A stretch of 11,974 nt of DNA from Thiobacillus sp. (GTDB taxonomy: Bacteria > Pseudomonadota > Gammaproteobacteria > Burkholderiales > Thiobacillaceae), in assembly GCA_020217265.1 (NCBI GenBank), contig JAIWOS010000191.1, positions 1 through 11,974 on the forward strand, read 5' to 3'. The notes under the pieces are model-generated. The model was given only the letters and a program-made list of their open reading frames with translations. It was not told the DNA's origin and did not search any database. Shown piece after piece: positions 1,300-5,247 of this stretch; position 1 is the stretch's first letter; every line of letters begins with the position of its first letter. The translations under genes were made by a program, and so were the position numbers.

Positions 1300-2316
1300 A
1301 TGCTCACCGAGCGCGCCCAAATCCTGCTGAAGACCCTGGTCGAACGGTACATCGCCGAAGGCGAGCCGGTGGGTTCGCGCACGCTGTCACGACACTCTGG
1401 CCTCGATCTGTCGCCCGCCAGCATCAGGAACGTGATGGCCGACCTGGAGGAGATGGGCTTTGTCGCCAGCCCGCACACTTCGGCCGGCCGGGTGCCGACG
1501 CCGCGCGGCTACCGCTTCTTCGTAGACACCCTGCTCACCGTGCGGCCGCTTGCGCAGTTGGAAGTCTCCCAGCTCGAAAGCCAGCTTGCCCCCGCCGACC
1601 CGCAACGCCTGATCGCGCAGGCCTCGACGCTGCTGTCCGATCTCTCCCGCTTCGCCGGCCTGGTGATGACGCCGCGCCGCAACCCGGCCTTCCGCCAGAT
1701 CGAGTTTCTCAGCCTGTCGGAAAAACGCATCCTGCTCATCATCGTGACGATGGAAGGAGAAGTGGAAAACCGCGTCATCCTCACCGACACGCCCTACTCC
1801 GCCTCGGCACTCACCGAGGCCGCGAACTATTTCAACCAGAACTTCGCCGGCCACCGCTTCGACCAGGTGCGCGCCAAACTGCGCGACGAGCTCGGCCGCA
1901 TGCGCGACGACATTACGCGCCTGATGACCGCGGCGGTGGACGCCGGCAGCCAGGCGCTCGACGCCAGCCAGGACACCGTGGTGGTCTCGGGCAGCCGCAA
2001 GCTCCTGGACGTGGAAGAACTCTCCAGCAACATGGGCAACCTGCGCCGTCTGTTCGACGCCTTCGAGCAGAAGACCGGCCTTTTGCAGCTGCTCGACCAG
2101 TCGCGCAGCGCCGCCGGTGTGCAGATCTTCATCGGCGGCGAATCCGAGCTGCTGCCGCTGGACGAATGCAGCCTCGTCACCGCCCCCTATTCGGTCGACG
2201 GCCAGGTCGTGGGCACGCTCGGCGTCGTCGGCCCCACCCGCATGGCGTACGAACGCGTCGTTCCCATCGTCGACATCACCGCCAAACTATTATCGAGTGC
2301 GCTTTCGCATCACTGA
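1300..2316 (+). CDS. hrcA: Heat-inducible transcription repressor HrcA
   Basis: HrcA is a dimeric repressor that binds CIRCE operators upstream of groESL/dnaK-type chaperone operons and needs GroEL to stay folded. The 338-residue product has the normal family length. The N-terminal winged-helix domain spans about residues 1-75 and includes the signatures [14 protein letters not shown] (17-30), [17 protein letters not shown] (38-54) and [18 protein letters not shown] (59-76). A GAF-like domain follows, ending with IFIGGES (276-282) and [18 protein letters not shown] (308-325). The ATG at 1300 starts directly on the conserved N-terminus, so no other start is needed. The TGA stop shares its A with the hemH ATG, which predicts translational coupling. 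The chaperone genes it controls are not in the window. Confidence 0.97.
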
Positions 2317-3419
2317 TGACCTATCTCACAGAACCCGGGTACACCCACGGACAGGCGAGCAAAACCGGCATCCTCCTGATCAATCTCGGCACGCCCGAAG
2401 CACCGACTGCGCAGGCGCTCAGGCCCTACCTCAAGCAATTCCTTTCCGATCCGCGGGTGGTGGAAATTCCGCGTGCGGTCTGGTGGCTGATCCTCAACGG
2501 CATCATCCTCAACACCCGGCCGAGAAAATCCGCCGAGAAGTACGCCGCGATCTGGACCGCCGACGGTTCTCCACTGAAGGTGCACACCGAAAAGCAGGCC
2601 AAGCTGCTCAAGGGCTGGCTCGGCGAGAAGGTCGCCTCACCCTTCCAGGTCGAGTACGCCATGCGTTATGGCGCGCCCTCCATTCCCGACACGCTCGCGC
2701 GGATGAAAGCCGATGGCTGCGACCGCATCCTGCTGCTGCCGGCCTACCCGCAGTACGCCGCATCGTCCACCGCCACCGCCTTCGACATGGCCTTCGGCTG
2801 GCTGCAGCAAACACGCAACCAGCCGGCGCTGCGCACCGTCAAGCACTACCACGACCACCCCGCCTACATTCAGGCGCTGGCCGCCAACATCCGCGACACC
2901 TGGCAAATGCACGGCCGCCCCGACGTGCTGCTGATGAGCTTTCACGGCGTGCCGAAATACACCCTGGATAAAGGCGACCCCTACCACTGCGAATGCCAGA
3001 AGACCGGGCGGCTGCTGGCCGAAGCGCTCGGGCTCGAAGCAAAGCAGTTCCGCATCACTTTCCAGTCGCGTTTCGGCAAGGCGGAGTGGCTGCAACCCTA
3101 CACCGACAGGACGCTGGCTGCGCTTGGCCGGGAAGGGGTCGGGCGCGTCGATGTCGTCGCCCCGGGCTTCACCGCGGACTGCCTTGAGACGCTGGAGGAA
3201 CTGGCGATGGAAGGCCGCGAAACCTTCCTCACCGCAGGTGGCCGGGAATTCCGCTACATCCCTGCGCTCAACGAACATCCGCAATGGATAGACGCGCTCG
3301 GCCGCATCGCCCTCGACAACCTGGGCGGCTGGGTGAGCGAAACCTGGGATCGCGAAGCCGAAGCGCACGCGCGCGAAGCGACCCGGACGCGCGCACTGCA
3401 AGCCGGTGCCAACCGATAA
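2316..3419 (+). CDS. hemH: Ferrochelatase
   Basis: Ferrochelatase inserts Fe2+ into protoporphyrin IX, the last step of heme synthesis. The start chosen is the ATG overlapping the hrcA stop by one base; it gives 367 residues, right for betaproteobacterial enzymes. The frame is open further upstream, but that part lies inside hrcA and has arginine-rich shadow composition. Visible motifs are [11 protein letters not shown] (20-30), [18 protein letters not shown] (140-157), SFHGVP (208-213) with the presumed metal-binding His210, and [13 protein letters not shown] (284-296) with the acidic residue at Glu291 that corresponds to the conserved porphyrin/metal-site Glu. No N-terminal signal is present, and the last 20-odd residues are a basic, low-conservation tail. 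A terminator begins inside its stop codon. Heme made here would be needed by FccA downstream. Confidence 0.97.
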
Positions 3420-3438
3420 ACCGCGCCCGGTTTTTTTT
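3418..3438 (+). terminator. Intrinsic terminator of hrcA-hemH
   Basis: AAACCG (3418-3423) pairs with CGGTTT (3428-3433) around the loop CGCC, followed by a run in which eight T occur in total. It starts within the hemH TAA stop codon. It separates the hrcA-hemH unit from the fcc unit. Confidence 0.88.
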
Positions 3439-3480
3439 GTCGAACACCCCGCAAACCCGCGCTATATAAGCGTTTGCTTG

Positions 3481-3509
3481 TTGACAGTAGTTTTTGCCTA
3501 CTGAATCAT
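3481..3509 (+). promoter_or_regulatory. Sigma-70 promoter of the fcc operon
   Basis: A perfect -35 TTGACA (3481-3486), a 17-bp spacer and a -10 AATCAT (3504-3509, four of six matches) predict a start near 3516. That would give a leader of about 131 nt before fccA, beginning almost exactly at the first conserved hairpin. The spacer carries an inverted repeat (separate entry). A small dyad CGCT-ATATA-AGCG lies at 3460-3472, just upstream of the -35. Confidence 0.65.
3485..3503. promoter_or_regulatory. Inverted repeat in the fcc promoter spacer, possible operator
   Basis: CAGTAG (3485-3490) and CTACTG (3498-3503) form a perfect 6-bp dyad separated by 7 bp, overlapping the end of the -35 box and abutting the -10 box. 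A dimeric regulator bound here would cover the core promoter. No known binding consensus was recognised. Confidence 0.4.
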
Positions 3510-3517
3510 GCGGGCAC

Positions 3518-3587
3518 CGCACGGGTAACCGAGAAACCCGTGTGCTTTTGATCGTGGCCTTTTCGTCAGGTAACCGAGAAACCTGGC
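3518..3587 (+). ncRNA. Tandem-hairpin leader motif of the fcc operon (candidate cis-regulatory RNA)
   Basis: Two hairpins share the identical 9-nt loop AACCGAGAA and the identical closing GGT/ACC pairs. Hairpin 1: stem 3518-3526 with 3536-3544 (9 bp including one G-U), loop 3527-3535. Hairpin 2: stem 3565-3571 with 3581-3587 (7 bp including one G-U), loop 3572-3580. Below the closing pairs the stems differ by compensating changes: G-C versus A-U, A-U versus U-G, and C-G versus G-C. The loops are 45 nt apart. The predicted transcript start (about 3516) lies just before hairpin 1. Conserved loops on varying stems suggest an RNA recognised by a protein or small molecule. I do not recognise it as a named riboswitch; the guanidine-II class also has two hairpins, but with ACGR loops. 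Confidence 0.6.
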
Positions 3588-3630
3588 CGCATTGGTCCAA
3601 ACTGGTGTCGTGCACACCACCCAACTCAAT

Positions 3631-3649
3631 CTCCTGGAGGAGTCTTATG
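3631..3649 (+). promoter_or_regulatory. Ribosome binding site of fccA inside a small hairpin
   Basis: A strong Shine-Dalgarno GGAGGAG (3636-3642) sits 4 nt before the ATG (6 nt if GGAGG is counted). Directly before it, CTCC (3631-3634) can pair with GGAG (3639-3642), and ACTC (3624-3627) can pair with GAGT (3640-3643). The site could therefore be masked. A further hairpin, TGGTGT with ACACCA, lies at 3603-3619. Confidence 0.5.
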
Positions 3650-3952
3650 ACATTCAAGACCATCGCCCTGTCGCTTGCGGCTTTTGCGGGTTTCGGTCTG
3701 GCGAGCGCGTCCCACGCCGCCGACATGCACATTCAAGTGATTTCGTCGACCTGCATGTCCTGCCATGGCCCCGGCGGCAAGAGCCTCGGCGCCATTCCCA
3801 GCATCGCCGGCCTCGACAAGGATTACTTCGTCAAACAGATGAAGGACTTCAAGTCCGGCGCTCGTCAGGGCACCATCATGAAGCGTCACGCCGCCGGCTA
3901 CACCGACGCTGAATACGAAGCCATGGGCGCGTACTTCGCGAGCCTGAAATAA
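3647..3952 (+). CDS. fccA: Monoheme cytochrome c, FccA-like subunit of flavocytochrome c sulfide dehydrogenase
   Basis: This small periplasmic c-type cytochrome would accept electrons from the flavoprotein encoded next to it and pass them to soluble cytochrome c. The ATG at 3647 has a strong Shine-Dalgarno and begins directly on a Sec signal peptide (hydrophobic residues 5-20, likely cleavage after SHA or SHAA, residues 22-25). The 101-residue precursor holds a single heme motif CMSCH at 36-40, followed by GPGGKS and the IPSIAGL turn of class I cytochromes. Met78 or Met93 may be the sixth heme ligand. The open frame extends upstream from a TTG at 3494, but that stretch overlaps the promoter -10 and the hairpins and is rejected. 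The gene ends 23 bp before fccB. The length fits the monoheme FccA type rather than the diheme 21-kDa type. An alternative name is SoxE. Confidence 0.88.
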   Translation: MTFKTIALSLAAFAGFGLASASHAADMHIQVISSTCMSCHGPGGKSLGAIPSIAGLDKDYFVKQMKDFKSGARQGTIMKRHAAGYTDAEYEAMGAYFASLK

Positions 3953-3975
3953 GTGAGCGTAAGGGAGACATGAAC

Positions 3976-5247
3976 ATGACTTTGAATCGTCGCGATTTTC
4001 TGAAAGTTTCCGGCGCAGGTGCCGCGGTGGCCCTGACCGGCTGCGCCACCCAGTCCGCCCCCACCGTTGCCAAGGCCAACCCGCACGTCGTCGTGGTCGG
4101 CGCGGGCTTCGGCGGCGCCACCTGCGCGAAGTACCTGCGCAAATGGGGCCCGAATATCCAGGTCACCCTGGTCGAGCCGAACGACAAGTTCGTTTCCTGC
4201 CCGATGTCCAACTGGGTGCTCGGCGGCATGAAAACCATGGACGACATCACCCACGGTTACGACAATCTGCCCAAGCACGGCATCAAGATGGTCAAGGACT
4301 ACGTGGTCGGCGTCGACACCTCGAACCGCGTGCTCAAGCTGAAATCCGGCGCCACGCTGAACTACGACCGCCTGGTGCTGGCGCCTGGCGTCGAAATCAT
4401 GACCGACTTCGTCAAGGGCTTCAAAGAAGCCGAGGCCGCCGGCAAGGTGGTTCACGCCTGGAAAGCCGGCCCGCAGACCGCCCTGCTGCGCAAGCAGCTC
4501 GAGGCCATGCCCGACGGCGGCGTGTTCGTCATGTCGGTGCCCGCGGCGCCCTACCGCTGCCCGCCCGGACCTTACGAGCGCGCCTGCCTGGTCGCCAACT
4601 ACTTCAAGAAGGCCAAGCCCAAGTCCAAGATCATCCTGCTCGACGGCAACCCCGATGTCGCCTCGAAGCCGGCCCTGTTCAAGGGTGTGTGGAACGACCA
4701 GTACAAGGGCATGATCGACTACCGCCCCAACAACCTGCCTTTCGCCGTGGACGGCAACAGCATGGTCGTCTCCACCGAATTCGACGACGTGAAGGGCGAT
4801 GTGCTGAACGTGGTGCCGCGCCAGAAGGCGGGCCAGGTCTGCGAACTGGCCGGCGTGCGCAACGACAGCAACGGTATCTGGTGCGCGGTCAACCTGGCCA
4901 CCTTCGAGTCGACTACCGTGCCCGGCGTCCACATCATCGGCGACTCGGTGCTGTCCAACCTGCCGAAATCCGGCCACATGGCGACCAACATGGCCAAGGT
5001 CTGCGCGGCAGCCATCGTCGAGTTGTTCGCGGGCCGCCAGCCCGACCCGATTCCGGTCGTCGCCAACACCTGCTACTCGGCCGTCTCCGACTCGCAGTCG
5101 GGCTATGTGGCCAACGTGTTCCGCTTCGACAAGGAAAAGGGCTACGTGTCGCAACCCGAGGGCGGCGCCACGGCCAAGGGCGACGACTTGAACTTTGCCT
5201 ACAACGAGTCCTGGGCTCAAAACATCTGGGCTGAAGTGCTCGGCTGA
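3976..5247 (+). CDS. fccB: Flavocytochrome c sulfide dehydrogenase, FAD subunit
   Basis: The flavoprotein oxidises sulfide to sulfur/polysulfide in the periplasm and reduces the FccA heme. The 423-residue product starts with a Tat motif NRRDFLK (4-10) and a hydrophobic stretch. VVVVGAGFGG (38-47) is the FAD-binding Rossmann motif. Cys75 in FVSCPMSN matches the cysteine that binds FAD covalently in the family. Cys195 (YRCPPGPYE) and Cys366 (NTCYS) fit the redox-active disulfide, and IIGDSV (320-325) is the second FAD motif. Start choice: the ATG at 3970 is in frame but only 2 nt after GGGAG, whereas the ATG at 3976 is 8 nt after it and is preferred. Oddity: the Tat signal ends in LTGC (20-23), a plausible lipobox. 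It shares one transcript with fccA and ends before a strong terminator. SoxF is the equivalent name. Confidence 0.93.
   Translation: MTLNRRDFLKVSGAGAAVALTGCATQSAPTVAKANPHVVVVGAGFGGATCAKYLRKWGPNIQVTLVEPNDKFVSCPMSNWVLGGMKTMDDITHGYDNLPKHGIKMVKDYVVGVDTSNRVLKLKSGATLNYDRLVLAPGVEIMTDFVKGFKEAEAAGKVVHAWKAGPQTALLRKQLEAMPDGGVFVMSVPAAPYRCPPGPYERACLVANYFKKAKPKSKIILLDGNPDVASKPALFKGVWNDQYKGMIDYRPNNLPFAVDGNSMVVSTEFDDVKGDVLNVVPRQKAGQVCELAGVRNDSNGIWCAVNLATFESTTVPGVHIIGDSVLSNLPKSGHMATNMAKVCAAAIVELFAGRQPDPIPVVANTCYSAVSDSQSGYVANVFRFDKEKGYVSQPEGGATAKGDDLNFAYNESWAQNIWAEVLG

Follow-up and report, generated by a model that had tools for sequence, protein, structure and literature searches.

A lineage-restricted tandem-hairpin leader element upstream of sulfide-oxidation genes in Thiobacillus, probably a docking site for a regulator

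The window, by which we mean the entire stretch of 11,974 nucleotides that was analysed, contains the ferrochelatase gene hemH (2313–3419, start codon predicted; Pfam PF00762, E 1.3e-119), followed after 227 nt by fccA and fccB, the genes of flavocytochrome c sulfide dehydrogenase. The genes and leader elements of the window listed here lie on the forward strand. The cytochrome c subunit is encoded by fccA (3647–3952, starting with the ATG at 3647), which matches cytochrome c Pfam models (E ∼2e-5) and precedes fccB (3970–5247), the gene of the flavoprotein subunit, which carries a TAT signal (FCSD_central, E 1.6e-44; FCSD-flav_bind, E 3.2e-15; TAT_signal, E 1.7e-6). A Shine–Dalgarno motif, GGAGG, was read from the sequence at 3636–3640 and is kept in the leader alignment.

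The end of hemH coincides with a predicted intrinsic-terminator-like hairpin followed by a T run (3418–3438), which would split hemH from the fcc transcript. Further downstream lies a predicted σ70 promoter, TTGACA-17-AATCAT (3481–3509; 10/12 matches, shuffle mean 0.0). The box TATATAAG (3463–3470) is located 5′ of the −35 element and shortly 5′ of CTTGTTGACA, the two together occupying 3463–3486; it recurs across the genus, as the pattern [CT]ATATAA[GA], a gap of 3–14 nt and TTG[TA][TC] was found in 26 of 35 leaders, and is perhaps an activator or UP-like site. The promoter spacer is crossed by a dyad, CAGTAG-N7-CTACTG (3485–3503), a possible repressor operator that is present with changes at the loci L005 (CAGCA/TGCTG) and L168 (CAGTA/TACTG).

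Beyond the promoter, the 15-nt sequence GGTAACCGAGAAACC occurs twice without a mismatch, at 3524–3538 and 3569–3583, an offset of 45 nt. Hairpin 1 (H1, 3519–3543; GCACGGGT-AACCGAGAA-ACCCGTGT) comprises 8 pairs, the outermost of which is G-U, and a loop at 3527–3535; hairpin 2 (H2, 3565–3587; GTCAGGT-AACCGAGAA-ACCTGGC) comprises 7 pairs and a loop at 3572–3580. A preliminary description of this DNA had reported an identical loop repeated 45 nt apart and three differences between the stems that each keep pairing (G-C/A-U, A-U/U-G, and C-G/G-C), and we read the same from the sequence. The covariance model described below assigns 36.7 bits to H1 and 31.9 bits to H2. H1 starts ∼10 nt 3′ of the predicted promoter, so its assignment to the very 5′ end of the mRNA, also proposed earlier, holds if that promoter is real, in which case H1 would begin at most ∼10 nt from the start of transcription. 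The linker between the hairpins (3544–3564) varies between species. A third hairpin (H3, 3603–3619; TGGTGT-CGTGC-ACACCA) with a variable loop is positioned directly 5′ of the ribosome site and is not followed by a T run in the window.

When folded singly, the two window hairpins are more stable than shuffled sequences (−12.3 kcal/mol, z −3.66 for H1; −7.8 kcal/mol, z −3.01 for H2), and the hairpins of three relatives are weaker (z −1.73, −2.33, and −1.04). In the fold of the whole window leader, H1 has a pair probability of 1.0, and H2 is a minority structure (0.22–0.23) that is missing from the minimum-energy fold; the 141-nt leader as a whole shows no unusual stability against shuffles (z −0.17). 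Within 3550–3590, GTGGCC can pair with GGCCGC, which excludes H2. None of the other six leaders that bear the hairpin pair shows such pairing when its fold is predicted.

The window's assembly (2.14 Mb, ∼85% complete) holds no copy of the 15-nt core besides these two and no match to its reverse complement, each at up to 2 mismatches. A strict double-loop pattern matched no further genome among 60, because the middle of the loop varies. Direct reading of the regions 5′ of fccA in relatives revealed the pair in four more genomes, and a covariance model (R1), built from the ten hairpins of these five genomes and run on 56 genomes of the genus, added two further pairs. The pair is thus found in 7 of the 56 genomes (G000, G031, G064, G026, G003, G035, and G062), in all seven between hemH and fccA, and every strong model match in the genus falls at this position. 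On account of a loop 2 nt longer, the second hairpin of G062 reached an E-value of only 0.19, which indicates that the model search would miss more diverged copies. Further genus matches with E up to 0.5 (34 rows, as against ∼28 expected from the E-values) look like chance; one of these rows falls in the window's own assembly (E 0.43). The preliminary description had named absence from orthologous fccA leaders and a scatter of copies over the genome as the two outcomes that would speak against its reading, and neither occurred. A REP-type or mobile repeat is ruled out by the presence of just two copies in the assembly at up to 2 mismatches and by the confinement of strong matches to the hemH–fccA position. 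A general fccA leader element, on the other hand, was not borne out: the pair is present in 7 and missing from 28 of the 35 leaders examined (a set from which 12 distant fcc paralogs and one locus without fccA were excluded), and none was seen in the order and class samples besides genus members.

Outside the genus, no pair was found in samples taken at the levels of order (399 genomes), family (117), and class (369). The order sample contained 17 non-genus genomes with one match each (E up to 0.02); a frame free of stops over at least 80 amino acids overlaps each of the 17 sites, which is no proof of coding in GC-rich DNA, and L204, L210, and L211 may be intergenic. At L203 a second weak match (13.6 bits) lies 49 nt upstream within a long open frame, and at L213 a second weak match is 1.3 kb away. 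Single matches were also obtained in 8 non-genus genomes of the family sample and in 5 genomes of the class sample; in the 8 of these 13 that were examined, no second match on the same strand lay within 100 nt. A pattern scan of genome contigs yielded at least 117 stretches, which together with 16 viral stretches gave 133 loci for stem filtering. Among the matches listed, L054 and two tandem-repeat loci (L111 and L160) passed the filter, and six loci at sequence edges, which could not be filtered, were read as repeats. L054 is the same leader as that of G035, and L065 (Hydrogenophilales bacterium 17-61-9) is the same leader as that of G003; we assume that L065 failed the filter because of its bulge.

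RNAalifold, given no structure in advance and applied to the seven leaders as aligned with MAFFT, returned three helices that correspond to H1, H2, and H3. The consensus hairpin can be written as stem-CGGG-W-AACC-N-RGAA-R-CCCG-stem, and across the 14 hairpins, 13 of which are distinct, 7 of the 9 positions common to the loops show no variation or a single exception. In the distinct hairpins, 76% of cells are paired (66.8% in shuffles), a value that drops to 17–40% when the pairing register is slid by 1–3 columns. Compensated-change cells number 12 in the distinct hairpins (5.6 in shuffles) and 13 in the whole leaders (6.0 in shuffles; 87.6% of cells paired), and in both cases 0 of 500 shuffles scored as high, counts that are no probabilities because the seven leaders are related. 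Pairs changed on both sides (179/500 for hairpins, 110/500 for whole leaders) and the number of pair types (234/500 and 177/500) do not exceed the shuffles. As these two measures are the least inflated by relatedness, the covariation is suggestive and not conclusive on its own.

The loops contain 7 of 11 and 6 of 11 invariant columns, the first linker 0 of 23 scored columns, and the second linker 1 of 16. The majority letter accounts for a fraction of 0.86 in both loops and 0.77–0.86 in the stem arms, compared with 0.57 and 0.67 for the two linkers and 0.46 upstream of H1; the values for H3 and the Shine–Dalgarno motif are 0.62 and 0.95. Loop conservation therefore does not exceed that of the arms. 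The loop measures 9 nt except in hairpin L173_b, where it measures 11 nt, and in several genomes the two copies do not share the same middle. Next to the loop, U-A or U-G is present in 5 of the 13 distinct hairpins and A opposite G in the other 8, so the closure by GGU/ACC noted earlier applies to both window hairpins, but a closing U-A is not general. The distance from hairpin to hairpin is flexible (41, 41, 45, 45, 45, 48, and 49 nt) and keeps no single helical phase. We infer that the loop may be organized as two A-A mismatches, a C-G pair as cap, and a small apex, which the 2-nt apex insertion of L173_b would fit. Complementarity between the loop and its own 3′ tail equals that of shuffled tails (131 versus 130.4; 947/2000 as high), and a loop–tail pseudoknot was rejected on this ground. 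Between the loops of H1 and H2, complementary runs are only 1–3 nt long (sum 15 versus 11.5 in shuffled loops; 29/2000 as high), and the loops of L012_b (CCGG) and L173_b (CCUAGG) are self-complementary. Judged by sequence comparison, conservation in seven genomes excludes a chance origin of the pair. The earlier proposal that selection acts on an RNA structure whose loop is fixed agrees with this conservation, the unguided fold, the compensated changes, and the invariant loop columns, and we regard a selected RNA structure as highly probable.

Individual leaders differ in their predicted folds. In single-sequence ensembles of the whole leader, both hairpins dominate in three of seven (L005, L168, and L011; inner pairs ≥0.84). 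The ensemble of L010 lacks H2 and contains H1 only around its bulge, and in L012 and L173 the arms of H1 and H2 pair mutually to give one long hairpin. Watson–Crick pairs within hairpins outnumber those across hairpins in the window (13 versus 9), L005 (10 versus 8), and L168 (11 versus 8), the three leaders in which the H2 stem carries A-U for G-C, a change of one or two events that favours separate hairpins.

A hemH tree (28 rows, midpoint root) places five of the seven pair-bearers in one supported group (99/94) and the remaining two, L010 and L011, among pair-less relatives; on an fccB tree of six of the seven (L010 was too short), the pair needs 3 changes. Either a single old origin with later losses or an exchange of the locus could account for this. 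The fccB genes 3′ of the pair fall into two subfamilies, that of L173 (G062) being 56% identical to the window's, which indicates that the pair goes with the locus and not with the enzyme lineage. At L222, we read two hairpins at the same places with decayed loops. A second leader type, aligned for eleven leaders upstream of fccA (L007–L009, L014, L020, L024, L025, L027, L028, L215, and L220), features a different 5′ hairpin, then a near-invariant AAGGCTT, then H3. Some of these leaders have a terminator-like T run after H3 (TTTTTT in L027, TTTTT in L028), and in L014 and similar leaders CCCCGC and GCGGGG could pair alternatively in the manner of an attenuator. Taken together, the paired, decayed, and second-type leaders indicate that the leader evolves fast 3′ of a promoter that has the TATATAAG box.

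We tentatively propose that the element acts in cis in the 5′ leader of the fccAB mRNA, where its twin loops would dock one factor that controls fccAB output. The two loops would be sites for one and the same RNA-binding factor that acts in trans; a protein touching both hairpins as a dimer or via two domains is the most likely candidate. From its place at the extreme 5′ end, the element might set fccAB output via mRNA lifetime or ribosome entry, with H3 possibly insulating the ribosome site; the gene context suggests sulfide or electron supply as the signal, and the preliminary description had on the same basis named sulfide, sulfur species, redox state, or heme as candidates. A loop kept like the stem, free linkers, two copies at a drifting distance of 41–49 nt, and little pairing between the loops form the pattern of two docking sites. 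That the loop is no better kept than the arms weakens the docking reading and strengthens its main rival, according to which the hairpins merely shield the fccAB mRNA from 5′-end-dependent decay and bind no specific factor. The conserved stems, the proximity of H1 to the predicted transcription start, and the different hairpins that other genus members carry at the same place are consistent with such a stabiliser, yet it leaves unexplained why the 9-nt loop is conserved at the level of the stem and why it is present in two copies; we consider it possible, if rather doubtful. The arms of H1 and H2 could also form a single long hairpin with the loops facing each other across an internal loop, since the arms are cross-complementary, the folds of lowest energy for L012 and L173 take this shape, and L012 has at least as many pairs across hairpins (6 and 6) as within them (5 and 6). 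However, the H2 stems of the window, L005, and L168 have changed on both sides such that the separate hairpin is kept and cross-pairing is weakened, and there is little chance that the long hairpin is the functional form.

Other readings invoke a ligand, a terminator, DNA, or a second RNA. A metabolite riboswitch whose two hairpins meet around a ligand through their loops would share twin hairpins, similar loops, and a variable linker with guanidine-II, and the complementarity of the H1 and H2 loops, slightly above shuffled loops, as well as the self-complementary loops of L012_b and L173_b point in the same direction. Against it stand the shortness of the loop–loop runs, the lack of an Rfam match in the leaders (E up to 1), the confinement to one genus in the searches made, and the lack of an expression platform common to all seven leaders. 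The narrow range and the simple loop make a bound factor look more likely than a small-molecule riboswitch, and we regard the latter as unlikely. Protein-dependent antitermination of the ANTAR type, with H3 as the terminator, would fit the T-rich tail (≥5 of 8) that follows H3 in L010 and L011, the A-C-C-G within 5 of 14 loops, and the ANTAR protein genes in all seven pair genomes. Such a tail is missing from the window and the four other leaders, though, ANTAR genes also occur in 34 of 49 pair-less genomes (Fisher p 0.17), the loop differs from a paired hexaloop bearing A1 and G4, and six ANTAR-to-transporter intervals read in the genus lack the loop pattern (one chance match lies elsewhere, in L244); we thus consider an attenuator of this kind rather improbable. 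It is very unlikely that the repeats are two direct-repeat transcription factor sites in DNA: their location directly after the promoter and their equal orientation would suit an operator, but the stem arms change with compensation around a fixed non-palindromic core, the 41–49-nt spacing keeps no helical phase, and the window core occurs nowhere else in the assembly at up to 2 mismatches. Two equal exposed loops could likewise be the target of a trans-encoded small RNA. This is highly improbable, however, as the ∼85% complete assembly contains no complement of the full 15-nt core at up to 2 mismatches and the loop middle differs between copies in several genomes.

Returning to the docking of one factor by twin loops, the element would probably be a lineage-restricted docking site for a regulator ahead of sulfide-oxidation genes. 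That it constitutes an undescribed class of tandem-hairpin RNA with the loop AACC-N-RGAA, read by an RNA-binding protein responsive to sulfide or electron supply, is a more speculative proposal. If true, this would be, to our knowledge, the first case in which flavocytochrome c sulfide dehydrogenase is controlled at the level of RNA; no report of such control or of such an element was found at the level of titles and abstract beginnings, in a literature sample with few subscription journals. If the element works as proposed, it would provide a short RNA bait for a new RNA-binding regulator in sulfur-oxidising bacteria. It is also an example of a leader retained at one locus in front of enzyme genes from different subfamilies.

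The element can be compared with several known systems. As in cis-regulatory leaders in general, it shows compensated changes and the same position across species, with double changes and pair types at the shuffle level. CsrA/RsmA targets also present repeated hairpins in 5′ leaders, with GGA in the loop as the core CsrA signature, whereas only 5 of the 14 hairpin loops contain GGA here. Hairpins that stabilise mRNAs at the 5′ end, such as that of the ompA leader, are likewise stem-loops near the 5′ end, but those depend on the stem and leave the loop free to vary, whereas in the present leaders loop and arms are equally well conserved. In line with the preliminary description, which knew of no described class with this loop, Rfam has no match in the window at the gathering score, and a search of the leaders at 12 loci gave no match with E up to 1 either; the sub-threshold matches to sX6 (L011) and BSR0709 (L027) lie outside the leaders. 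The guanidine-II class has a short ACGR loop, which is not the loop found here, and a different gene context. Its two similar stem-loops, joined by a linker of 7–40 nt (PMC7544219), nevertheless resemble the present arrangement.

The element also resembles the ANTAR-target RNAs of the nasF, amiE, and eut leaders. These consist of two small hairpins with conserved loop residues at variable distance and are bound by a dimeric protein; their stems have 3 bp, the loops are hexanucleotides in which positions 1 and 4 are occupied by A and G, and a terminator lies downstream (PMC3369931). Measured against that account, the present leaders differ in their 9-nt AACCNRGAA loops, longer stems, and lack of a shared terminator. 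A-C-C-G is found in 5 of the 14 loops, both window loops among them, where a hexaloop would be closed by A opposite A, and is absent from the other 9. With loop size and closure different, no shared terminator, and ANTAR proteins common in pair-less genomes, an assignment as ANTAR target is not supported. Separately, we observed an ANTAR response regulator gene ∼1 kb 3′ of a gene for an FCSD-like flavoprotein (42–44% identical to FccB) at L243 (G064 C10), L246 (G000 C174), and L247 (G026 C14); in G064 and G026 the next gene encodes a putative NrtA-like transporter, whose leader has a strong hairpin and a T run. What the ANTAR-target RNAs and the present leaders appear to have in common is a leader with two small hairpins, conserved loops, and variable distance, and the docking of one factor at both loops may, with due caution, be likened to ANTAR proteins, which act as dimers on dual hairpins.
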